The position numbers were made by a program, and so were the translations under genes. A DNA stretch of 64,000 nucleotides from Hansschlegelia beijingensis (lineage in GTDB: Bacteria; Pseudomonadota; Alphaproteobacteria; Rhizobiales; Methylopilaceae), in assembly GCF_014196425.1 (NCBI RefSeq), contig NZ_JACIDR010000004.1:62001-126000 (forward strand). Reading direction: 5' to 3'. Each line of letters begins with the position of its first letter. The first letter of the stretch is position 1. Shown here piece by piece: positions 50,672 through 64,000 of the stretch. Under the pieces are notes generated by a model. It did not search any database. It was not told the origin of the DNA and saw only the letters and a program-made list of their open reading frames with translations.

Positions 50672-53023
50672 ATGATCGTGCGCAGTTCCATCTCCCTTCG
50701 GCCGAAGATGTCGAATGTGGCGTTGACGGCGAGCGCGACGCTCGCCGCGGCGGCGGTTCAACCGATGGCGGCGTTCGCTCAGTCGACCGAACAGGAGTCG
50801 ACCTCCCTCGACCCGATTCAGGTCGAGGGCGCGGCTGCGTCCTATGGCAACGCCAACGACGCATCGACGGGGATCAGCCGCCTGCCGGCGACGGTTCGGG
50901 AGATTCCGCGGGCGGTCACGGTCATTTCCCAGGAGCAGCTCGAGCAGCAGGGCGTCACGACCGTCGAGCAGGCGCTCAGGAACGTGCCGGGCATCACGCT
51001 CTCCACCGGCGAGGGCAATGGCGGCACCAATGGCGACCAGTTCCGCATCCGGGGCTTCCAGTCGAAGGGCGACATCTACATCGACGGCCTGCGGGACTTC
51101 GGCGCCTATGTGCGTGACAGCTTCGACATCGAAAGCATCGAGGTCATCAAGGGCCCGAACGGCGAGAATTTCGGCGTCGGCACCACCGGCGGCCTGATCA
51201 ACCAGACCTCCAAGAAGGCGCATCTCGGCGATGCGCTCTCGATCGAGGGTCAGATCGGCAGCGGCCCGCTCAAGCGCGGCACGGTCGACTACAACAAGCA
51301 GATCAACGAAACGACGGCCATCCGCCTCAACGGCATGGTCCATGATCAGGACGTCGCCGACCGCGACCATGTGAAGTCGGATCGGCAGGGTTTCGCGGCG
51401 GCGCTCGGCTTCGGCCTCGGCACGGACACGACCTGGTCGCTCAACTACATGTACCAGCACAACAACCGGAAGCCGGACTACGGCGTGCCGTTCATCGCCG
51501 ACGCCAACGGCCGGTGGCGCCCGGCGACGGAGCTCGGCCTGAGCCGCTCGACCTCCTATGTGCGCGCCACCGACAAGGACGTCACCAACGCCCATGTGGT
51601 CACGTCGCTGTTCTCGAAGGAGGTCAATGACTGGCTGACGATCTCGAGCGAATCGCGCGTCGGCTTCTACGATCGCGACTATTCCTCGACCGCGCCCGGC
51701 TGCTCCAACGACGCCAGCAGCTCCACGCCCGGCGTTCAGTACGACGGCAGCTGCTCGCAGCAGTTCTTGGCGGGCGGCAATCCGCTCATCACCTACGGCG
51801 CGGGCGGCGGTCTGAGCTACAAGCAGAGGACCTGGGGTCTCGAGAACACCACGACCGCGAAGGCCGAGTTCGAGACCGGCGGTCTGAAGCACAAGGCCCT
51901 GGTCGGCGTGAACGTCTACTATCAGGACGACCACCGCGAGCCCGCGAGCTACGGCCAGACCCGCGGCAACCAGACGATCCGCGATCCGTTCTACAACACC
52001 CCGAACGCGGTGAGGACGCGCGTGGTCGGCAATGACCGCGACGCGACGGCCTCGGACGTCGCGCTGTTCGCCAACGACCGGGTCTGGTTCACCGACCAGA
52101 TCTCCGTCATGGGCGCCCTCCGCTGGGACAACTTCAAGAGCAAGTTCTACAGCTTCACCCCGGCCGCCGCGGACACCACCGCGCCGTTCGAAGACGTCGA
52201 GATCAACAGCAAGCAGTCGGACAGCAAGCTCAGCCGCTCGGTGGCGCTGATGTTCGAGCCGCAGTCGAACCAGACCTATTATGTGAGCTACGCCCGCTCC
52301 TACACGCCGATCGGCACCAACGTCGCGACGCAGGCCGGCAACGCCACCAGCGAGGTGCCGGGCGGCGCGAGCGGAAACCTGAAGCTCGATCCCGAAAAGG
52401 CCGACCTCTACGAGTTCGGCGGCAAGATCGACCTCATGGACGGTCGTCTCGGCCTGTCCGGCTCGGTCTTCCAGATCGACAAGAGCAACGCCTACGACGT
52501 CGACCCCACCACCGGCGACGTCATCGGCGGCTTCTCCGACGCCAGCCAGAAGCGGCGCGTGCGCGGCTTCGAACTCGGCGCCACCGGCGAACTTGCGCCG
52601 GGGCTGAACATCCAGTTCGGCTACGCCTATCTGGACAGCAAGATCCGCGGCGAGACTCCCGGCACGGCGGCCGCGTCATCCGTGAAGGGCAATGACGTTC
52701 CCTATGTGTCGAAGCACAACGCCGCCCTGTGGGCGACCTACGAGCTGTCGCGTCACTTCGCCGACAAGATGCCGGGCAAGCTGGTCGTCGGCGGCGGCAT
52801 CCAGTACGCCAGCGCATACTGGGCGGATCCCGCGAACACCGCGCGGGTTCCCAAGTCCTTTTCGCTCGATGGCCTGATCTCCTACGAGTATGAAGGGGTG
52901 CGGGTCGCCCTCAACGGCTACAACCTGACCAACGAGCTGAACTACACCTCCGCGCAGGGCACAGGCCGCGTCGTGCCGGGCTCCGGCCGGACGGTGCTGC
53001 TCTCCCTCGGCTACAAGATGTGA
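50672..53023 (+). CDS. fiu: TonB-dependent siderophore receptor, Fiu/PiuA-like (catecholate)
   Basis: The 783-residue outer-membrane receptor has a signal peptide (cleavage near residue 37, AFAQ), TonB box LDPIQVEG, plug segments IPRAVTVISQEQLEQQGV, FRIRGFQSKGDIYIDGLRDFG (split in two) and VIKGPNGENFGVGTTGG, and a C-terminal barrel ending YKM. The length and plug match Fiu/PiuA catecholate receptors. Coupling with a PiuC/YbiX dioxygenase, a Sel1 protein and a DUF4405 protein matches the Pseudomonas piu locus order, which supports this assignment. Confidence 0.88.
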   Translation: MIVRSSISLRPKMSNVALTASATLAAAAVQPMAAFAQSTEQESTSLDPIQVEGAAASYGNANDASTGISRLPATVREIPRAVTVISQEQLEQQGVTTVEQALRNVPGITLSTGEGNGGTNGDQFRIRGFQSKGDIYIDGLRDFGAYVRDSFDIESIEVIKGPNGENFGVGTTGGLINQTSKKAHLGDALSIEGQIGSGPLKRGTVDYNKQINETTAIRLNGMVHDQDVADRDHVKSDRQGFAAALGFGLGTDTTWSLNYMYQHNNRKPDYGVPFIADANGRWRPATELGLSRSTSYVRATDKDVTNAHVVTSLFSKEVNDWLTISSESRVGFYDRDYSSTAPGCSNDASSSTPGVQYDGSCSQQFLAGGNPLITYGAGGGLSYKQRTWGLENTTTAKAEFETGGLKHKALVGVNVYYQDDHREPASYGQTRGNQTIRDPFYNTPNAVRTRVVGNDRDATASDVALFANDRVWFTDQISVMGALRWDNFKSKFYSFTPAAADTTAPFEDVEINSKQSDSKLSRSVALMFEPQSNQTYYVSYARSYTPIGTNVATQAGNATSEVPGGASGNLKLDPEKADLYEFGGKIDLMDGRLGLSGSVFQIDKSNAYDVDPTTGDVIGGFSDASQKRRVRGFELGATGELAPGLNIQFGYAYLDSKIRGETPGTAAASSVKGNDVPYVSKHNAALWATYELSRHFADKMPGKLVVGGGIQYASAYWADPANTARVPKSFSLDGLISYEYEGVRVALNGYNLTNELNYTSAQGTGRVVPGSGRTVLLSLGYKM

Positions 53024-53042: not shown

Positions 53043-53729
53043 GTGCTGGTGCACATCAACGGCGTCCTGACGCCTGACGAGGTCGCGTTCTGCCGCTCGA
53101 TCCTGGAGAGCTCCTCCTGGATCGACGGCAAGGCGACGGCCGGCGATCAGGCCGCCAAAGCCAAACACAACATGCAGGTTCCGGAGGACTCCGCCGAGGC
53201 GCGCCGGCTCGGCGAGCTGATCCTGACGGCGCTCGCCCGCAATCCGGTCTTCAACTCCGCCGCGCTGCCGCTGCGCGTGCTGCCGCCGATGTTCAACCGG
53301 TATGACGAGGGCATGAGCTTCGGCGCGCATGTCGACGGCGCCATCCGGGCCATCCCCGGCGCGGGCGGCATGCGGATGCGGGCGGACGTCTCGAGCACGC
53401 TGTTCCTCACCGACCCGGAGGATTACGACGGCGGCGAGCTCGTGATCGAGGACAGCTATGGCGCGCACGCCGTCAAGCTGCCAGCGGGCGACATGGTGGT
53501 CTATCCGGCCACCAGCCTGCACCGCGTCGAACCCATCACCCGGGGGAGCCGCTGGTCGTCGTTCTTCTGGACGCAGTCGATGGTCAAGGACGACGGCGAG
53601 CGGACGCTGCTCTACGACCTCGACCTCGCGATCATCGAGACGCGGGCGCAGCTCGGCGACCGAAGCCGCGCCACGCTCGGCCTCGTCAACCACTACCACA
53701 ACCTGCTGCGGCGCTGGGCCGAGCTGTGA
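53043..53729 (+). CDS. ybiX: Fe(II)/2-oxoglutarate-dependent dioxygenase PiuC/YbiX
   Basis: The 228-residue PKHD-type hydroxylase has a double-stranded beta-helix core with the iron facial triad His96-x-Asp98 (GAHVDGAIR) and His160 (SLHRVEP), and the 2-oxoglutarate Arg170. The VLPPMFNRYDEGM segment is a family marker. YbiX/PiuC is encoded beside Fiu/PiuA receptors and regulated by iron; its substrate is not established. A GTG start is used, 20 bases after the receptor stop. Confidence 0.9.
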   Translation: MLVHINGVLTPDEVAFCRSILESSSWIDGKATAGDQAAKAKHNMQVPEDSAEARRLGELILTALARNPVFNSAALPLRVLPPMFNRYDEGMSFGAHVDGAIRAIPGAGGMRMRADVSSTLFLTDPEDYDGGELVIEDSYGAHAVKLPAGDMVVYPATSLHRVEPITRGSRWSSFFWTQSMVKDDGERTLLYDLDLAIIETRAQLGDRSRATLGLVNHYHNLLRRWAEL

Positions 53730-56121: not shown

Positions 56122-56250
56122 GCCGGCCGGCCGCCCAACGATCAGAGCGGGCGGGTGAGCCGCTGAAAGAACCTCCGGTCGCGCGTGCGACGCCGAGGCT
56201 CCCCAAGGCCCCGGCGGACGGCGATGTTCCTCTGGCGCTTCTGATACGCC

Positions 56251-56264
56251 ACTGATATATTAGT
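56251..56264. promoter_or_regulatory. Putative GntR operator, site A (ACTGATATATTAGT)
   Basis: The 14-base near-palindrome ACTGATATATTAGT, embedded in a longer CCACT...AGTGG inverted repeat, lies 38 bases upstream of the hydroxylase ATG. An identical 14-mer on the opposite strand lies at 59990-60003, between gntR and the MFS gene. In DNA this GC-rich an exact AT-rich repeat is very unlikely by chance. Confidence 0.72.
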
Positions 56265-56302
56265 GGCTGAAGCGATCACCAGCATCGCCATGGGAGGACT
56301 TC

Positions 56303-57097
56303 ATGGAACTCGCGCAATCGCCCATGTCCGAGCGCCAGCGGGCTTACCGCGCCAATTACCGGCAGCGCGTCGCCGGCTGGTACAATGGCATTCTGCACAT
56401 CGCGATCATTTACGTGATCGGGTTCACGGCGCTCTACGTCTATCTGTCGAACGTGGACGCCCCGAGCTGGCTCGAGCTGGCCACCGTCCCGGTCACCTTC
56501 CTGTTCTGCAACTTCTTCGAGTGGTGGATCCACCGCTACGTCATGCACCGGCCGTCGAAGAACCCGGTCGCGCGCGCGGTCTACAATCGCCACACGCTGC
56601 AGCATCACCAGTTCTTCACCGAGCACGAGATGCGGTTCGCGGATCACCGCGATTATCGCGTGACGTTCTTCCCGCCCTACGCGCTCGCCGCGTTCACGCT
56701 GATGTCGATCCCCGGCGCGATCGCCCTCGGCTTCCTGTTCTCGCCGAACGTCGGCTGGCTGTTCATCACGACCACCACGTCGATCTACATGATCTACGAG
56801 TTCATGCATTTCTGCTGCCATGTAGAGGACAACTGGTTCGTGCGGAACATGCCGTTCATCAACACCAACCGGCGCCACCACACGGCCCATCATGACCAGT
56901 CGATCATGATGGAGCGGAACATGAACCTGACCTTCCCGATCATGGACTGGCTGTTCGGCACGTCCGACCTGAACCGCGGGCTGATCGGCACGCTCCTCAA
57001 CGGCTACGACACGCGCTTCGTGAAGACGGACATGCGGAAGACCTCCCGCACGCCGGGCGCTTCGGCGCCGTCCGGGACCATGCAGCCGGCGGAGTGA
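56303..57097 (+). CDS. Fatty acid hydroxylase/sterol desaturase family di-iron membrane protein
   Basis: The 264-residue integral membrane oxygenase has three histidine clusters for a di-iron centre: HRYVMH (77-82), HTLQHH (97-102) and HHTAHH (192-197). Four or five membrane helices surround them. The family hydroxylates or desaturates lipids, sterols, carotenoids and small aldehydes (through alkane or decarbonylase chemistry). Its operon with a PanB-like enzyme and its GntR-type control suggest a catabolic or special metabolic role, not membrane-lipid housekeeping. It is the first gene after operator site A. Confidence 0.88.
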   Translation: MELAQSPMSERQRAYRANYRQRVAGWYNGILHIAIIYVIGFTALYVYLSNVDAPSWLELATVPVTFLFCNFFEWWIHRYVMHRPSKNPVARAVYNRHTLQHHQFFTEHEMRFADHRDYRVTFFPPYALAAFTLMSIPGAIALGFLFSPNVGWLFITTTTSIYMIYEFMHFCCHVEDNWFVRNMPFINTNRRHHTAHHDQSIMMERNMNLTFPIMDWLFGTSDLNRGLIGTLLNGYDTRFVKTDMRKTSRTPGASAPSGTMQPAE

Positions 57098-57102
57098 CGG
57101 CG

Positions 57103-57492
57103 ATGGCCGCGATCGAGCCGAACGTCGCAGCGCTCTGCTGGTTCGCGCTGTTCGCGGCCGTCGCGGGCGTCGGGTTCTACGTGCTGGCGGGCGCCTTTCC
57201 GCTTGCGACCCGCGACGACCTCACCGGCAAGGCCGCCGGTGTCGCGCTGGTCGCGCTGAACGCGATCGCCTTCCTGGCGCTCGCCTACGGGGCGCTCGCC
57301 TTCGGGCTGGCGGAGCTGCGCTGGACCAGCGTGGTGATCGTGAGCGGCCTCGCCGCGCTGTTCACGCCCGGCGTGTTCCACCTCTGGCCCGAACGCTGGA
57401 GGGACGGCGCGGCCGGGCTCGGGATACTGCTTGCGATCACGGTGGCGGCGCTCGGCGCGCTCCAGGCGGTCGGCGGCGTCTTCGTCGCCTGA
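57103..57492 (+). CDS. Small membrane protein in the hydroxylase-panB-like operon
   Basis: The 129-residue protein has four hydrophobic segments (near 8-28, 40-62, 72-90 and 103-125) with few charged residues. FALAYGALAFGLAELRW-like repeats give no family clue. The ATG at 57103 follows GGAG at normal distance; a GTG at 57094 overlapping the hydroxylase stop (GTGA) is the alternative. It may be an accessory membrane subunit of the hydroxylase. The function is unknown. Confidence 0.7.
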   Translation: MAAIEPNVAALCWFALFAAVAGVGFYVLAGAFPLATRDDLTGKAAGVALVALNAIAFLALAYGALAFGLAELRWTSVVIVSGLAALFTPGVFHLWPERWRDGAAGLGILLAITVAALGALQAVGGVFVA

Positions 57493-57524
57493 GCCGTCAT
57501 CAACGAGAAGAGAAGGGGAGGAAC

Positions 57525-57749
57525 ATGCCGTTCAAGATCAAGATGGGGCTCACCATCATCGTCGGCCTCGCCGCGCTGGCGGGCTTCTTCTTCATGGGGC
57601 ACCTCGGCAAGACCGGGCCGCAGATCGCGCTGCTGTTCCTGGGCCCGTTCACGATGGGCAGCCTCTGGATCTTCCCCGAGGTCATGAAGACCGCGGCCGA
57701 CAACAAGCCCGCCACCCGCCGCCGGGCGCTTGAGGGACAGACGCAATGA
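57525..57749 (+). CDS. Small membrane protein, 74 residues
   Basis: The protein has a hydrophobic N-terminal helix (KMGLTIIVGLAALAGFFFMG) and a second one (IALLFLGPFTMGSLWIF), then a charged C-terminal tail. AGAAGGGGAGGAAC is a strong ribosome-binding site before the ATG. It is coupled to the next gene by ATGA. No family is recognised; two-helix proteins of this kind often assist a membrane enzyme. Confidence 0.7.
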   Translation: MPFKIKMGLTIIVGLAALAGFFFMGHLGKTGPQIALLFLGPFTMGSLWIFPEVMKTAADNKPATRRRALEGQTQ

Positions 57750-58051
57750 CCGTCTATGTCGGGGACCGCACCATCGACGGCATCTCGGTGATGGCCGACG
57801 GCCAGCCGCTCGACACCTATGAGGACGTCAAGACGTTCTCGCCGAACGGCTTCGAGTGGAGCTACGAGGGCCCGGAGCCGACGCAGCTCGCGTTCGCGCT
57901 GCTGGTCGACCACCTCGGCGACGGCCGCCGCGCGGCGGCGCTCGCCGAGCGCTTCATGCGCGACGTGGTGGCGAACTTCCAGAACGAGTGGGAGATGTCG
58001 ACCGCCGACATCGACCGGGTGCTCGCAAGCTACGGCGCAGCCGCCGCCTGA
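57746..58051 (+). CDS. DUF6166-like small soluble protein
   Basis: The 101-residue protein has a beta-rich start (MTVYVGDRTIDGISVMADG) and an alpha-helical second half (LAFALLVDHLGDGRRAAALAERFMRDVVANF). The layout recalls DUF6166-type proteins from memory. It starts within the stop of the previous gene (ATGA), so the three small proteins and the hydroxylase appear to be made together. The function is unknown. Confidence 0.7.
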   Translation: MTVYVGDRTIDGISVMADGQPLDTYEDVKTFSPNGFEWSYEGPEPTQLAFALLVDHLGDGRRAAALAERFMRDVVANFQNEWEMSTADIDRVLASYGAAAA

Positions 58052-58182
58052 CCAGCCCCGCGGTCCGCCCGGGACTCTCTCCGAGAAGCCATCCGATCGC
58101 CGCAGGCGCGGCGCGCGGCCGACCGATCGCGGTCGGCCCGAGACATCATGCGGCGCGGCGCGCGCCAAATGGGGGACTGCCA

Positions 58183-59067
58183 GTGAACGACGCTCCTGCG
58201 CCCGCTCAGAAGCGCGAAAAGCGCTCCATCACCGAGATCCGCGACTCCAAGCGGACCGGCGAGAAGATGGTCTACATGTCGGTGCCGGACTACACCTCGG
58301 CCAAATGGGCCGAGATGGCCGGCGTCGACGTCGCGGTGGTGGGCGACAGCCTCGCGATGATCGCGCATGGCCACGCCAACACCATCCCGGCCACGATGGA
58401 TATGATGGTCATGCACGCGCAGGCGATCCGCCGCGGCGCGCCGAACACCTTCGTGCTCGGCTGCATGCCCTATCAGAGCTACCACACCGTCGACCGCGCG
58501 CTCGTCAACGCCACCCGCTTCATGCAGGACGCGCTGACCGACGCGGTGAAGCCGCAGGGCGGCAGGTCGCAGGCGCACATCCTCAAGGCGCTGGTCGACG
58601 CCGGCATTCCGACCGCCTCGCATATCGGGCTGACGCCGCACACGATCGCAAACTTCGGCGGCTTCAAGATCCAGGGCAAGACGGCTGACGCCGCCTTCAA
58701 GATCCTCCAGGACGCGCTCGCGATCGAGGACGCCGGCTGCTTCATGCTGGAGTTCGAGGCGGTGCCGGCGCGGATCGCGACGCTGATCTCGCAGCAGCTG
58801 ACCATTCCGACGATCGGGATCGGCGCAGGCGTCGGGACCGACGGGCAGATTCTGCTCTGCCATGACCTTCTGGGCGTCTTCACCGACTTCAAGCCGAAGT
58901 TCACCAAGCGCTACGCCAAGCTCACCGAGGTCGCGGTCGCGGGCATCCGGGAGTATGTGCGTGAGGTCAAGGAGGGCGCGTTCCCGGACGACGACCACTC
59001 CTACTCGGTGAAGGACGAGGAATACGAGAAGTTCGCCGCGATGGTGGAGAGGCGCCGGCAGATCTGA
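58183..59067 (+). CDS. PanB-like (ketopantoate hydroxymethyltransferase family) protein, divergent
   Basis: The 294-residue protein of the PEP mutase/isocitrate lyase barrel fold matches PanB in VVGDSLAM (Asp55), HIGLTPHTIANFGGFKIQGK and IPTIGIGAG. The second metal-binding Asp of PanB (E. coli Asp84) is replaced by Cys94 (VLGCMPYQSY), and the VKLEGG motif reads VKPQGG (Gln125), while Lys123 and Glu192 are kept. PanB joins a one-carbon unit to 2-oxoisovalerate. These changes and the lack of panC nearby suggest a different substrate. The GTG follows GGGGGA. Confidence 0.85.
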   Translation: MNDAPAPAQKREKRSITEIRDSKRTGEKMVYMSVPDYTSAKWAEMAGVDVAVVGDSLAMIAHGHANTIPATMDMMVMHAQAIRRGAPNTFVLGCMPYQSYHTVDRALVNATRFMQDALTDAVKPQGGRSQAHILKALVDAGIPTASHIGLTPHTIANFGGFKIQGKTADAAFKILQDALAIEDAGCFMLEFEAVPARIATLISQQLTIPTIGIGAGVGTDGQILLCHDLLGVFTDFKPKFTKRYAKLTEVAVAGIREYVREVKEGAFPDDDHSYSVKDEEYEKFAAMVERRRQI

Positions 59068-59136
59068 CCCGCCGGTTCGGTCCTGCCTGGTTTCGCGGGC
59101 AGCCACGACATCCTTAGCCGACGAGCGCTTGGGCGC

Positions 59137-59153
59137 CCCGGCCTTTGGCCGGG
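59137..59153. terminator. Short hairpin between the PanB-like gene and gntR
   Basis: CCCGGCC (59137-59143) and GGCCGGG (59147-59153) pair around TTT. It lies between two convergent genes. The stem is only 7 pairs with no T-run, so the call is weak. Confidence 0.4.
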
Positions 59154-59172
59154 CCTGCCCACGGAGTGACCC

Positions 59173-59883
59173 TCAGACGTCGAGCGTCTTGCGGGCGAAG
59201 CTCTCGATATAGTCCATCAGCCGGTCGGAAGCCGCCGCGGCGGCCGCGCCGTCGCGCGCGGCGATCGCTTCCGCGACCTCCGCGTGCAGCCGCGCGGACT
59301 GCGCAAGGTCGCCGACCTCGCGATAGTGCTGGTACCAGAAGCGGCGCGACAGGGCGGTCATGTTCGCCATCGCGCGGCTGGCGAACTCGTTGCGCGCGGC
59401 CGCCGCCACGAGCTGGTTGAAGTCGCGGTCGAGCCGCATGAAGGTCAGGTCGTCGGACGCGTCGGCGGCGGCCCGCATGTCCCGGGCGAGTTCCGCGAAC
59501 CGCTCGCGCTCGGCGGGGTCGGCCCGCTCGGCCGCGAGCCGGGCGAGCAGCGCCTCGAGCACCCGGCGGGTCTCCAGCAGCCGAAGCTGGGCCTTGAGGT
59601 TGATCTCCGACACCAGGATGCCGCGGCGCGGCGCGACGATCACCAGACCGTCGCGGGCGAGCCGCTGCAGCGCCTCCCGGATCGGGGTGCGGCCGAAGCC
59701 GAGCCGCTGGGCGAGCGCCATCTCGCTGAGGAACGCGCCCGGCGGGAGCTGAAGCGTGCAGATCAATTCCTCGAGCGCCACATAGGCCCGCTCGGTCAGC
59801 GTGCGCTCCTCCGCCGGCTGGGCGCCGGGGGCGGGCTCCCCGGAGGCCGGGCGCGAGCGCGAACGGACGGTGGACGCGCTCAT
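59173..59883 (-). CDS. GntR family regulator with FCD ligand domain
   Basis: The 236-residue regulator has an N-terminal winged helix (about 28-90; LSEMALAQRLGFGRTPIREALQRL split in two) and an all-helical FCD domain with RLDRDFNQLVAAAARN and HAEVAEAIAARDGAAA. The metal-ligand His/Asp residues usual in FCD domains are present in part. It diverges from the MFS gene with operator site B between them and is convergent to the PanB-like operon. It probably represses both units until its ligand, likely the transported compound, is present. Confidence 0.9.
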   Translation of the reverse strand: MSASTVRSRSRPASGEPAPGAQPAEERTLTERAYVALEELICTLQLPPGAFLSEMALAQRLGFGRTPIREALQRLARDGLVIVAPRRGILVSEINLKAQLRLLETRRVLEALLARLAAERADPAERERFAELARDMRAAADASDDLTFMRLDRDFNQLVAAAARNEFASRAMANMTALSRRFWYQHYREVGDLAQSARLHAEVAEAIAARDGAAAAAASDRLMDYIESFARKTLDV

Positions 59884-59989
59884 GGACGCCTCGACTCGAA
59901 GGCAGGCTCGGACCGGAGTATCCGCATCCTCCGTGGCTTAGCACGCGCGGATCGTCCGGCAAAAGCCGGTCGGCGAAGCTTGGAAGACT

Positions 59990-60003
59990 ACTAATATATC
60001 AGT
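59990..60003. promoter_or_regulatory. Putative GntR operator, site B (ACTAATATATCAGT)
   Basis: ACTAATATATCAGT is the exact reverse complement of site A at 56251-56264. It lies 106 bases upstream of gntR and 83 bases upstream of the MFS gene start in their shared 203-base gap. The 6-base core ATATAT is symmetrical. Confidence 0.72.
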
Positions 60004-60086: not shown

Positions 60087-61496
60087 ATGACCGATGTAAC
60101 GCTGCCTTCCGGCGGCGGCGCCGTCGCAGGGGCGTCGTCCGCGACGACCGCCAGCGACGTGATGATCGCGGCCCGCCTCGATCGCCTGCCGATGACCGGC
60201 TACCAGAAGCTCATCTTCGGCATCATCGCCACCGCCTGGTTCTTCGATTCGATCGACCTCGGCTCGTTGACCTTCCTCCTCGGCTCGATCCGCACCGAGT
60301 TCGGCCTCACTCCCGCGCAGGCCGGCTTCCTGTCGTCGATGAGCTTCCTCGGGATGTTCCTCGGGGCGGCGATCTCCGGCATGGCGGCGGACCGGATCGG
60401 CCGCAAGCTGGTCTTCCAGATCTCGATGATCTTCTGGGGCCTCGGCAGCGTGTGGTGCTACTACGCGCCGGACGCCACGACGCTCGGCTACGCCCGCCTG
60501 CTGCTGGGCTTCGGCATGGGCATGGAGTTCCCGGTCGCGCTCGCGATCGTCTCGGAGTTCGTGCCGACCAAGAAGCGCGGCCGCTACCTCGCGATCCTCG
60601 AAGGCTTCTGGCCGCTCGGCTTCATCGCCGCGGGCCTGCTCAGCTGGTACTTCCTGACGCACTTCAGCTGGCGCGAGATGTTCCTGGCGCAGGCGGTCCC
60701 CGCCCTGTTCCTGTTCGTCGTCCGCTTCTTCGTGCCGGAGAGCCCGCGCTGGCTCGCCGACCAGGGCCGCTCGGCGGAAGCCGAGAAGGTCATGACCGAG
60801 ATCGAGGTCCAGGTGCGAAAGCGCCTGCCCGCAGGCGCGAAGCTCGACGAGCCGAAGCCCCTGCCGGCGGTCGCCCGTGGCGAGCGGCGCTTCTCGTTCA
60901 TGGAGCTCTGGCAGGGCGAGTACGCCAAGCGAACCGTGATGATCTGGCTGGTCTGGTTCTTCGCGCTGCTCGGCTTCTACGGCCTGACCACCTGGCTCGG
61001 CGCGCTCCTGCAGGCGCAGGGCTACACCAACACGAAGTCGACCGAATATGTCGTGCTGATCGCGCTCGCCGGCATTCCGGGCTTCATCACGGCGGCCTGG
61101 CTGGTCGACGCCTGGGGCCGCAAGGGCACCTGCGCGCTGATGCTGATCGGCTCCGCGGTCGCCGCCTACGCCTATGGCAACGCGCCGAGCTTCACGATGC
61201 TGATCGTGTTCGGCCTGATCATGCAGTTCTTCCTGTTCGGCATGTGGTCGACGCTCTACGCCTACACGCCGGAGCTCTACCCGACCCGGTCGCGCGCGAC
61301 CGGCGCGGGCTGCGCCTCCGCGGTCGGCCGCATCGGGTCGCTGATCGGCCCGGCGCTGATCGGCGTGGTGCTGCCGAACCTCGGCAATGGCGGCGTCTTC
61401 GCCCTCGGCGCCGGCTCCTTCGTCATCGCGGCCGTCGCCGTGCTGACGCTCGGTGTGGAGACGAAGGGACGATCCCTGGAGGAAATCTCCTCCTGA
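60087..61496 (+). CDS. MFS transporter, sugar/metabolite:H+ symporter type
   Basis: The 469-residue transporter has 12 helices. Family markers are AADRIGRK between helices 2 and 3, PVALAIVSEFVPTKKRGR, the PESPRWL motif after helix 6 and ELYPTRSRATGAG near helix 11. These place it in the sugar/aromatic-acid/niacin (NiaP-like) branch. Divergence from gntR and the shared operator suggest that it imports the substrate of the hydroxylase-PanB-like pathway. GGGGGAGGAAAT precedes the ATG. The imported compound is unknown. Confidence 0.88.
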   Translation: MTDVTLPSGGGAVAGASSATTASDVMIAARLDRLPMTGYQKLIFGIIATAWFFDSIDLGSLTFLLGSIRTEFGLTPAQAGFLSSMSFLGMFLGAAISGMAADRIGRKLVFQISMIFWGLGSVWCYYAPDATTLGYARLLLGFGMGMEFPVALAIVSEFVPTKKRGRYLAILEGFWPLGFIAAGLLSWYFLTHFSWREMFLAQAVPALFLFVVRFFVPESPRWLADQGRSAEAEKVMTEIEVQVRKRLPAGAKLDEPKPLPAVARGERRFSFMELWQGEYAKRTVMIWLVWFFALLGFYGLTTWLGALLQAQGYTNTKSTEYVVLIALAGIPGFITAAWLVDAWGRKGTCALMLIGSAVAAYAYGNAPSFTMLIVFGLIMQFFLFGMWSTLYAYTPELYPTRSRATGAGCASAVGRIGSLIGPALIGVVLPNLGNGGVFALGAGSFVIAAVAVLTLGVETKGRSLEEISS

Positions 61497-62322: not shown

Positions 62323-62952
62323 TCACACGCCGACGCGGCGCATGACGGCGATGCGCACGAGGTCCTGCAACGTGCCCGCCCTGAGCTTGTCCTTCAGGTT
62401 CGAGCAGGTGTTGGCGACCGTCTTGTAGCTGACGCCGAGTTCGTCCGCGATCTGGCCATAGGCCTTGCCCTGGCCCAGCAGGGCGAGCGTCTGGAGCTCG
62501 CGCCCGGTGAGGTTTGCGGGATCGCGCTGGGCGCGGCTGCCGAGCAGCGCCACCTGCATCGCCATGTCATGGCCGATATAGGGCTTGCGCTGACGGACCT
62601 TGTCGACCGCTTCCAAGAAGGTGGCGGGCGGGATGTCCTTGGGCACGAAGCCCGTGGCGCCCGCCTTGAGGGCGCGGCTGGCGATCACCGGGTCGCTGTG
62701 CATGCTGAAGACCAGCAGCGGCGTCTCCTCGTCATGCAGCCTGAGGCGGCGGATGAAGGACAGTCCGGCGAGCCCCCTGCCGCCGATCGACAAGTCGACC
62801 ACGATCAGCTCGGGGCTGCAGCGGCGGTATGTCCGGAAGCCCTCGAGCGGGGTGGTCGCCTCCAGCACCTCCCCGAATCCGGCCTCCAGCAACATGCGCC
62901 GGCACCCTTCCAGCACGATCGGGTGGTCGTCGATGATCAGGGCGCGCTTCAA
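62323..62952 (-). CDS. LuxR/NarL-type response regulator, MoxX-like
   Basis: The 209-residue response regulator has an N-terminal receiver domain with acidic pair DD (8-9), phosphorylation Asp53 in LIVVDLSIGG and Lys in GFVPKDI. The C-terminal LuxR helix-turn-helix has LTGRELQTLALLGQGKAYGQIADELGVSYKTVANTCSNL, here cited in two parts of one motif. The TTG start is inside the kinase stop (TTGA), so the pair is translationally coupled. Partnering with a LapD/MoxY-type kinase suggests MoxX-like regulation, in methylotrophs of methanol oxidation genes. The target is not visible. Confidence 0.86.
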   Translation of the reverse strand: MKRALIIDDHPIVLEGCRRMLLEAGFGEVLEATTPLEGFRTYRRCSPELIVVDLSIGGRGLAGLSFIRRLRLHDEETPLLVFSMHSDPVIASRALKAGATGFVPKDIPPATFLEAVDKVRQRKPYIGHDMAMQVALLGSRAQRDPANLTGRELQTLALLGQGKAYGQIADELGVSYKTVANTCSNLKDKLRAGTLQDLVRIAVMRRVGV

Positions 62953-64000
62953 CGGCGCTTCTCCTCCGCGTCGGAAAGCGGAATGAAGATCTCCAGGGCG
63001 GCGCCGGCCGGAACGGAGCGCAGCCGGAAGCGGCCGCGAAGCGCCTGGATGCGCTCCGCCAGCCCGAGCAGGCCGAACCCGGATGTGGTCTCGGCGGGCA
63101 CCCCCACGCCGTCGTCGATGACCTGAATGGCGAGCTCCGCGCGACCATTGACGACCTGCTCCTCGACCCGGACCTCGATCGTCGTGCACACGGCGTGCTT
63201 CAGCGCGTTGGTGATCCCCTCCTGCACGGCGCGATAGACGGTGAGGTCCATGACCGGGCCGTAGCCGGTCCTGAGCTCCGCCGTCAGCAGCGCGAACTGA
63301 TGGTCCGGATGGCGCCTTTCGAATTCGGCCACGAGCCCGCTCAGCACCTCGCCCAGCGGCGCTTCGCCCAGCGCGATCGGCTTCAGGCGGCGCAGCAGAT
63401 GGCGGTTGAGGGTCTGCAGGCGGTTGGAGATGTCGATCGCGGTCGCGAGACGCTCCTGCGCGGGAGCGGCGAGGCCTCCGCTCTCGGAAAGGCCGCTCTT
63501 GAGCAGCCCCAGATTGGCCTGCAGCCCGAACAGGCAGGGCCCCAGCTCGTCATGGAGCTCGGCCGCGATCTGCCGGCGTTCGTCGTCCTGCAGGAAGACC
63601 ATCCTGTGTGAAAGCCGCGCGTTGCGGTCGCGTTCCTCGCCGAGGGCGACCGCCAGCGCGTTGAACCGCTCGGCCAGCACCGCGAGTTCCTGGACGTGCG
63701 GGACCGGCAGCGGCTGGTCGGATCCGCCGCGCTCCAGCGCCGCGAGGCCCCGCCCGAGCGCCCCGAGGGGGGAGAGGATGCGGCGAAGGAGCAGGGCGAA
63801 GGCGGCGAGCCCCAGAACGTTGAAGGCCGCCAGCAGCGCCGCGAGGCTCGTCATGTCCTCCCAGACTTCCGCGATCTCGTCGGCCGGCTCGCCCTGGATC
63901 GCCACCATGCCCCGGAGTTCGCCGTCGGCCACGACCGGGATCTCCTGACGTTCCAGCGGGCTCTCGATCAGGCGGGCGAACCAGGCCGGCGCGGGCGAGA
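62949..64000 (-). CDS. Sensor histidine kinase, MoxY-like (N-terminus outside window)
   Basis: The visible 350 residues contain the end of a periplasmic sensor (FARLIESPLERQEIPV), a membrane helix (TSLAALLAAFNVLGLAAFAL), a HAMP-like linker, the HisKA_3 helix with the phospho-acceptor His in QIAAELHDELGPCLFGL, and an ATPase domain with N-box EGITNALKHA and G-boxes DDGVGVP and GFGLLGLAERI. The sensor part resembles the LapD/MoxY N-terminal domain. The gene continues past 64000. It is coupled to the response regulator. Confidence 0.87.
   Translation of the reverse strand, partial: SPAPAWFARLIESPLERQEIPVVADGELRGMVAIQGEPADEIAEVWEDMTSLAALLAAFNVLGLAAFALLLRRILSPLGALGRGLAALERGGSDQPLPVPHVQELAVLAERFNALAVALGEERDRNARLSHRMVFLQDDERRQIAAELHDELGPCLFGLQANLGLLKSGLSESGGLAAPAQERLATAIDISNRLQTLNRHLLRRLKPIALGEAPLGEVLSGLVAEFERRHPDHQFALLTAELRTGYGPVMDLTVYRAVQEGITNALKHAVCTTIEVRVEEQVVNGRAELAIQVIDDGVGVPAETTSGFGLLGLAERIQALRGRFRLRSVPAGAALEIFIPLSDAEEKRR

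Follow-up and report, generated by a model that had tools for sequence, protein, structure and literature searches.

A putative GntR regulon of Hansschlegelia beijingensis joining a membrane hydroxylase to a PanB-like protein, a partner that alternates with a zinc alcohol dehydrogenase in related loci

A stretch of 64,000 nucleotides from the genome of Hansschlegelia beijingensis (the window) carries a membrane hydroxylase gene followed by three genes for small proteins and a gene for a relative of ketopantoate hydroxymethyltransferase (PanB), and beside them a gntR gene that diverges from an MFS transporter gene. On comparative grounds it is very probable that these genes form one local catabolic regulon under GntR control, whatever its mechanism. 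In support of this, an FCD-type GntR regulator, divergently transcribed, and the palindrome ACTRATATATYAGT travel together, and the palindrome is placed both in the gntR/MFS interval and ahead of the hydroxylase genes. A preliminary description had proposed both a single regulon and a coherent system of uptake and metabolism; the first proposal is sustained by three independent lines, namely two exact sites in the genome, conservation of the site 5' of hydroxylase orthologues and in both intergenic regions of close relatives, and co-occurrence of gntR with the other genes, and the second by gene content conserved in 80 loci and by the exchange of transporters among them. The gene order is as described there, and the features are as follows (coordinates of the window, strand).

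56242..56251, +: additional weak core of the operator, TGATACGCCA, with 3/10 mismatches counted by eye, preceding the main core by 11 bp
56251..56264, +: operator 1, ACTGATATATTAGT, exact match 5' of the hydroxylase gene; position kept in relatives
56303..57097, +: hydroxylase of membrane di-iron type (fatty acid hydroxylase/sterol desaturase superfamily), 264 aa; PF04116 39.6 bits, cut-off 31
57103..57492, +: P2, small hydrophobic membrane protein, 129 aa; not assigned to a family by Pfam or NCBIfam
57525..57749, +: P3, small hydrophobic membrane protein, 74 aa; likewise not assigned to a family by Pfam or NCBIfam
57746..58051, +: DUF6166 protein, 101 aa; PF19663 107.4 bits
58183..59067, +: PanB-like protein, 294 aa; PF02548 312.3 bits, TIGR00222 281.5 bits, cut-off 207.55
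59173..59883, -: GntR-family regulator of the FCD subfamily, 236 aa, candidate operator binder; PF00392 63.6 bits and PF07729 85.7 bits, both above cut-off
59990..60003, -: operator 2, the 14-mer inverted, exact match in the gntR/MFS interval; kept in close relatives
60087..61496, +: MFS transporter, 469 aa; PF07690, PF00083

The operator in the window and in the genome

Exact copies of the 14-mer ACTGATATATTAGT lie at 56251-56264 (+) and 59990-60003 (-), so that, as first reported, it occurs once before the hydroxylase gene and once, in inverted orientation, in the gntR/MFS interval; its near-palindromic character also holds, two positions differing from its own reverse complement. A whole-genome search, suggested at the outset, covered 3,662,979 bases in 12 contigs and found these two exact sites only, not many copies. 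Elsewhere in the window there is no further site with up to three mismatches, and none of 100 shuffles of the window reached the four strand-matches observed (mean 0.10, largest 2). Across the genome, 8 forward and 7 reverse matches occur at up to three mismatches, numbers little above those of the backwards control (4 and 5), so that the weaker matches are mostly noise. One match, at C3:375760 (L003:1501-1514), is the near-perfect palindrome ACTGATATATCAGA, with two mismatches to the 14-mer and one to the palindromic consensus. It sits within a 508-codon open reading frame (ORF), which we take to resemble a caspase-fold peptidase and which an aquaporin-like ORF adjoins; located inside an ORF and probably a chance match, it was set aside as a third regulon site.

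The surroundings of the operators have a G+C content of 63-71% per kb. Operator 1 is separated from the hydroxylase ATG (56303) by 38 bp, and operator 2 from the gntR start (59883, - strand) by 106 bp and from the MFS start (60087) by 83 bp. A weak extra core, read by eye, was seen in the window at the hydroxylase site only; because it precedes the main core by 11 bp, a spacing that is enriched across relatives (below), the operator probably extends beyond 14 bp. No Rfam family was found near the operon.

Conservation and phasing of the operator in relatives

A scan of genome contigs gave 147 hydroxylase relatives, of which the best 80 were taken as loci for comparison, near-duplicates included (L054/L055 and two M. 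dankookense loci). In the 150 bp before the hydroxylase gene, loci whose best match to ACTRATATATYAGT has 0, 1, 2 or 3 mismatches number 6, 16, 28 and 19, respectively; that is, a site with up to two mismatches is present in 50/80 loci and one with up to three in 69/80. Per 80 windows, windows taken elsewhere in these loci predict 0.14 and 0.40 and shuffles 0.08 and 1.08, and 200 scrambled patterns matched a mean of 0.27 loci at up to two mismatches, with a maximum of 12, reached once. When the intergenic regions of related genomes were compared, a site with up to three mismatches was present in both regions of the window and seven close relatives (8/8 each), and in the alignment of their hydroxylase upstream regions, conservation is clear in two places, the operator block and the ribosome-binding region. 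In the window's group, the module (traced via DUF6166) is present in 8/13 genomes and exact consensus sites in 4/13.

The site often occurs in phased copies. With the best core TRATATATYA (up to two mismatches, 72 loci) as anchor and a second core allowed up to 4/10 mismatches, the second core is found at -11 in 46/72 loci and at +11 in 32/72, and at any other offset from -40 to +40 in at most 12. This 11-bp spacing suggests that two dimers could bind on one helix face. Extra sites in the genomes of 12 relatives (CTRATATATYAG, up to one mismatch) were rejected as further regulon members, the controls often being equally numerous. Among the CTRATATATYAG matches listed, 18 loci (L135-L152) divide into 7 that are the known module and 11 without module genes, the single exception among these 11 being a 39% GntR match in L142; for an exact site in Afipia (L145), no connection is evident.

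The regulator combines an N-terminal GntR winged helix-turn-helix with a C-terminal FCD domain, and the palindromic operator beside its own gene is conserved in orthologous loci. In all alignment rows that cover it, the segment of the recognition helix, GRTP[IV]REA, does not vary. These domains, and palindromic AT-rich operators located by its own gene and its neighbours, are shared with FCD-subfamily repressors of the FadR/VanR type; unlike those repressors, it falls far below all NCBIfam equivalog cut-offs and has operator copies phased at 11 bp. No characterised GntR orthologue was found among solved structures (best 60 bits).

A constant core with two alternating enzymes

By tblastn, DUF6166 is present in 75 of the 80 loci, P3 in 73, GntR (at least 50% identity) in 72 and P2 in 69. 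The hydroxylase of this module, which occurs in 16/385 sampled alphaproteobacterial genomes, shares with the PF04116 superfamily a match above cut-off and conserved di-iron-type histidine motifs (HX4H, HX3HH, HX3H and HX2HH), with eleven invariant histidines (H32, H77, H82, H97, H101, H102, H169, H173, H193, H196 and H197). It differs from the superfamily in forming a subfamily of its own, with 71-90% identity in 43 aligned relatives, and in its constant partners P2, P3 and DUF6166. Sequence searches of solved structures with the hydroxylase returned nothing relevant, and its predicted structure (pLDDT 64.8) has yeast Scs7p as a weak top fold match (E 0.8). For DUF6166, no paper was found in open-licence PubMed Central (PMC).

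A different enzyme accompanies this core from locus to locus. Near the hydroxylase, a zinc-dependent alcohol dehydrogenase (Zn-ADH), scored at a minimum of 50% identity to the L065 protein, is present in 51 of the 80 loci and a PanB-like gene in 18; both occur together in none, and 11 have neither. The corresponding numbers for 13 more distant loci, taken from 15 non-own hydroxylase matches in sampled genomes, are 2, 6, 0 and 5. The NCBIfam models nearest to the Zn-ADH are NDMA-dependent and formaldehyde-type alcohol dehydrogenases, all under cut-off. At the level of whole genomes, no ADH at E <= 1e-70 was found in the 11 PanB-like genomes tested outside the window's group, and the best ADH match in the group's 13 genomes has E 6.4e-38 and 32% identity. 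Where the PanB-like gene is not local (27 genomes), a copy of at least 50% identity (76%) is carried by Roseovarius MMSF_3350 alone, a genome without the module ADH; this gene lies away from the hydroxylase gene, and ~60 bp before its likely start there is a sequence resembling the operator (3 mismatches). A simple rule is contradicted by the L082 genome, in which the ADH is present elsewhere (87%), and by five Methylobacterium genomes with neither enzyme (below).

An alpha/beta hydrolase (at least 43% identity) was found in 14/51 ADH loci, 1/11 loci with neither enzyme and 0/18 PanB-like loci. On two betaproteobacterial plasmids (L168 from Cupriavidus and L169 from Hydrogenophaga; 6/24 plasmid records were examined, one of the six, L171, being without annotation in the stretch), an SDR oxidoreductase and an alpha/beta hydrolase replace the ADH, which fits a dehydrogenase-plus-hydrolase alternative. 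Because the module lies near Tn3 or IS66/IS91 elements on these large plasmids, recent mobility is suggested. A quick tree of 81 hydroxylases requires seven changes of the PanB label, at least four of them by starred branches, support that is a lower-quality estimate, with 18/77 inner branches starred (L086, left out of alignment A2, entered the tree truncated at its first stop). In L163 (G434, 1.3 Mb, 30% GC), genes for the PanB-like protein, a TRAP importer, a PhyH dioxygenase, the hydroxylase and P3 form one run with a divergent GntR gene, and the operator is one mismatch from the consensus. PhyH-family dioxygenase genes stand in the operon of three PanB-like loci, L155, L158 and L163 (by Pfam in L155 and L163, by likeness of the start in L158).

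The PanB-like clade

All 26 PanB-like members (the window, 18 loci, the Roseovarius copy and six distant loci, a spurious GDSLG match in L079 having been removed from 27 rows) have GCMPY and KPQGG, that is, Cys and Gln at two canonical positions. Canonical PanB proteins, including the genome's own copy and the solved 3ez4 and 3vav, have (V)(A/V)DLPF and K(L/F)EGG. If the magnesium ligands are Asp45, Asp84 and Glu114, as we presume from the E. coli protein and its numbering, the PanB-like protein retains the first Asp and has Cys at the second position and Gln at the third. Its match to PanB above curated cut-offs (PF02548, TIGR00222), the first presumed ligand and the IGIGAG region are shared with PanB; the Cys and Gln at the other two presumed ligand positions, and the place of its gene in a catabolic-looking module away from panC and panD, set it apart. 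A canonical panB elsewhere in the genome, on contig C6, keeps Asp and Glu, as does a plasmid panB found with panC and panD. This second panB on C6 should make a ketopantoate role for the PanB-like protein unnecessary. In L164 and L165, the PanB-like proteins are 86 and 83% identical to that of the window, as against 52 and 49% for the hydroxylases, and for this reason the PanB-like protein is the more constrained of the two. After the Roseovarius copy, the best match among the genomes without a local PanB-like gene is in Filomicrobium (L114), where a PanB relative of 49% identity has Ser and Gln at the two presumed metal-ligand positions and possibly represents an intermediate clade.

The label 'PanB-like' of the preliminary description agrees with the curated cut-offs, and it conceals that two canonical metal-ligand residues (presumed as above) are missing and that this is not the sole panB of the genome. 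The gene belongs to the regulon in the window, and across the 80 loci it is not a constant member, as the ADH is the alternative partner.

Transporters and substrate

The MFS transporter (at least 50% identity) is present in 31/80 loci; in loci without it, branched-chain-type ABC importers or TRAP importers occur, and six loci have a gene that we take to be tripartite-tricarboxylate-transporter-like. All of these transporter classes commonly carry organic anions. In the window, the MFS protein is nearest the aromatic-acid/H+ symport family, below cut-off (TIGR00895, 279.7 bits vs 418.55). The TRAP receptors, which occur in relatives only and not in the window, are nearest a keto-acid-binding protein (7ug8) and TakP (2hzk), for which the published structure report describes six residues holding sodium-pyruvate (PMC1839085). 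With these residues mapped by hand along the HMMER alignment, 13/14 TRAP-receptor loci have Tyr, Glu, Arg, Glu, Trp and Gln at the six positions; they share Tyr100, Arg177, Glu214 and Trp215 with the TakP site, and differ from it in exchanging Gln156 for Glu and Glu240 for Gln. The fourteenth receptor, in L097 (34% identity), has the TakP residues and probably belongs to another transporter. The relatives' TRAP transporter hints at a 2-oxo or 2-hydroxy acid as the substrate. Pivalate, trimethylpyruvate and pantoate were considered and fit on paper only; titles and abstract beginnings in open-licence PMC yielded no paper tying a pathway for any of them to genes of the module. In a single case (L161:6694-7614), a gene of the ketopantoate reductase (PanE/ApbA) family adjoins the hydroxylase gene, in a region without a PanB-like gene.

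Proposed mechanism and alternative explanations

According to the proposed mechanism, GntR would bind the operators, in many cases with two dimers at cores spaced by 11 bp, repress both transcription units and be released once the substrate or product binds its FCD domain. The MFS protein would import an organic acid, possibly of the 2-oxo or 2-hydroxy type, of which the membrane di-iron-type hydroxylase, aided by P2, P3 and DUF6166, would convert a methyl group to CH2OH. Retro-aldol cleavage by the PanB-like enzyme may then release this carbon, with formaldehyde or methylene-folate as the probable product, and in most relatives the Zn-ADH, in some with the alpha/beta hydrolase, would take its place and oxidise the same alcohol. 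The alternation of PanB-like protein and ADH is the main argument here, as from it the hydroxylase product should be a primary alcohol that the PanB fold could cleave. The explanation as a whole, comprising regulon, repression, organic-acid import, hydroxylation and removal or oxidation of a one-carbon (C1) unit, has perhaps an even chance of being right. Its most specific form is tentative: an apparently undescribed oxidative C-demethylation of a branched 2-oxo or 2-hydroxy acid, in which a membrane di-iron hydroxylase complex would make the hydroxymethyl group. A retro-aldolase derived from PanB, its metal site rebuilt, would shed this group in a single step, or ADH and a C-C hydrolase would do so in two, as exchangeable cassettes under one conserved GntR operator.

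Several observations weigh against this explanation. Eleven of the 80 loci are without a good site within 150 bp of the hydroxylase gene (five or more mismatches); nine of these have a site with up to two mismatches elsewhere in the locus, including six from Methylobacterium with the site ~300 bp upstream, in the MFS-hydroxylase interval, and L044 and L087 have none anywhere in the locus. No promoter of the sigma-70 type was found near the two operators in a scan with the consensus, and the claim that the operator overlaps a -10 element was dropped. A gap of 131 bp precedes the PanB-like gene; no terminator-like site was found in it, the four found elsewhere (1.6 expected) all being within coding sequence. 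Because five Methylobacterium genomes (L034, L046, L048, L051 and L053) have the hydroxylase and neither partner, the PanB-like protein and the ADH are both dispensable. Furthermore, the altered metal site of the PanB-like protein could serve a quite different reaction, the several types of transporter give weak substrate hints and membrane hydroxylases usually act on hydrophobic compounds.

In one alternative, the target of the hydroxylase and the small proteins is a hydrophobic compound, such as a membrane lipid, and the acid transporters, the PanB-like protein or the ADH handle a by-product such as formaldehyde instead of the hydroxylated substrate. Members of the hydroxylase family act on lipids, sterols and alkanes, the weak Scs7p fold match points the same way, and an ADH nearest to NDMA-dependent and formaldehyde-type models (below cut-offs) could, like the PanB relative, dispose of C1 units. 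However, the MFS, branched-chain-type ABC or TRAP importers by the hydroxylase gene point to an imported substrate, and the alpha/beta hydrolases that accompany the dehydrogenase in 14/51 ADH loci also speak against this alternative, which is unlikely. It is more doubtful still that, within a genuine regulon, the PanB-like protein is a second ketopantoate hydroxymethyltransferase, placed under carbon-source control for pantothenate synthesis and unrelated to the hydroxylase. It passes curated PanB cut-offs, including NF001452, and is ~40% identical to solved PanB proteins, as judged by eye on alignments, but a canonical panB is already present in the genome, the Cys and Gln are found in 26/26 members whereas the own canonical copy and the plasmid panB keep Asp and Glu, and replacement by an ADH, with both enzymes in 0/80 loci, would be left unexplained. 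That the 14-mers are AT-rich promoter elements or the site of another regulator, with GntR not the binder, is very improbable. Their core holds TATATT, which is near a -10 box; however, the loci conserve the palindrome in its two halves, including the outer C/G, extra copies are spaced exactly 11 bp, gntR accompanies 72/80 loci with its recognition segment invariant where covered, and the promoter scan gave no promoter-like site there.

Neighbouring genes

Upstream of the hydroxylase operon, an ORF at 50672-53023, which we take to be TonB-dependent-receptor-like, precedes a gene at 53043-53729 for a YbiX-group Fe2+ dioxygenase of PKHD type (NCBIfam NF003975), and together they look like an ordinary iron-uptake pair. 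Past the MFS gene, ORFs at 62323-63932 (-), presumably a response regulator and a histidine kinase, lie outside the conserved module.

Significance

A local catabolic regulon controlled by GntR is of a known kind, and the enzyme set around that of the window is apparently undescribed. Combinations of module terms retrieved no open-licence PMC paper on the cluster, by title, and among the open-licence PMC matches listed for the string tgatatatca, none is evidently on the regulon, again by title. What is new is a constant five-part core of hydroxylase, P2, P3, DUF6166 and GntR together with its operator, and the replacement of one enzyme by another of unrelated fold beside that core, which is a strong clue to the chemistry. 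One of the records is annotated panB, and automatic annotation of this kind may wrongly assign pantothenate synthesis. The replacement makes the functions of DUF6166, of P2 and P3 and of the PanB clade with an altered metal site directly testable and, if the explanation offered here is true, the exchange of cassettes would span bacteria from methylotrophs to one with a 1.3 Mb genome of 30% G+C.

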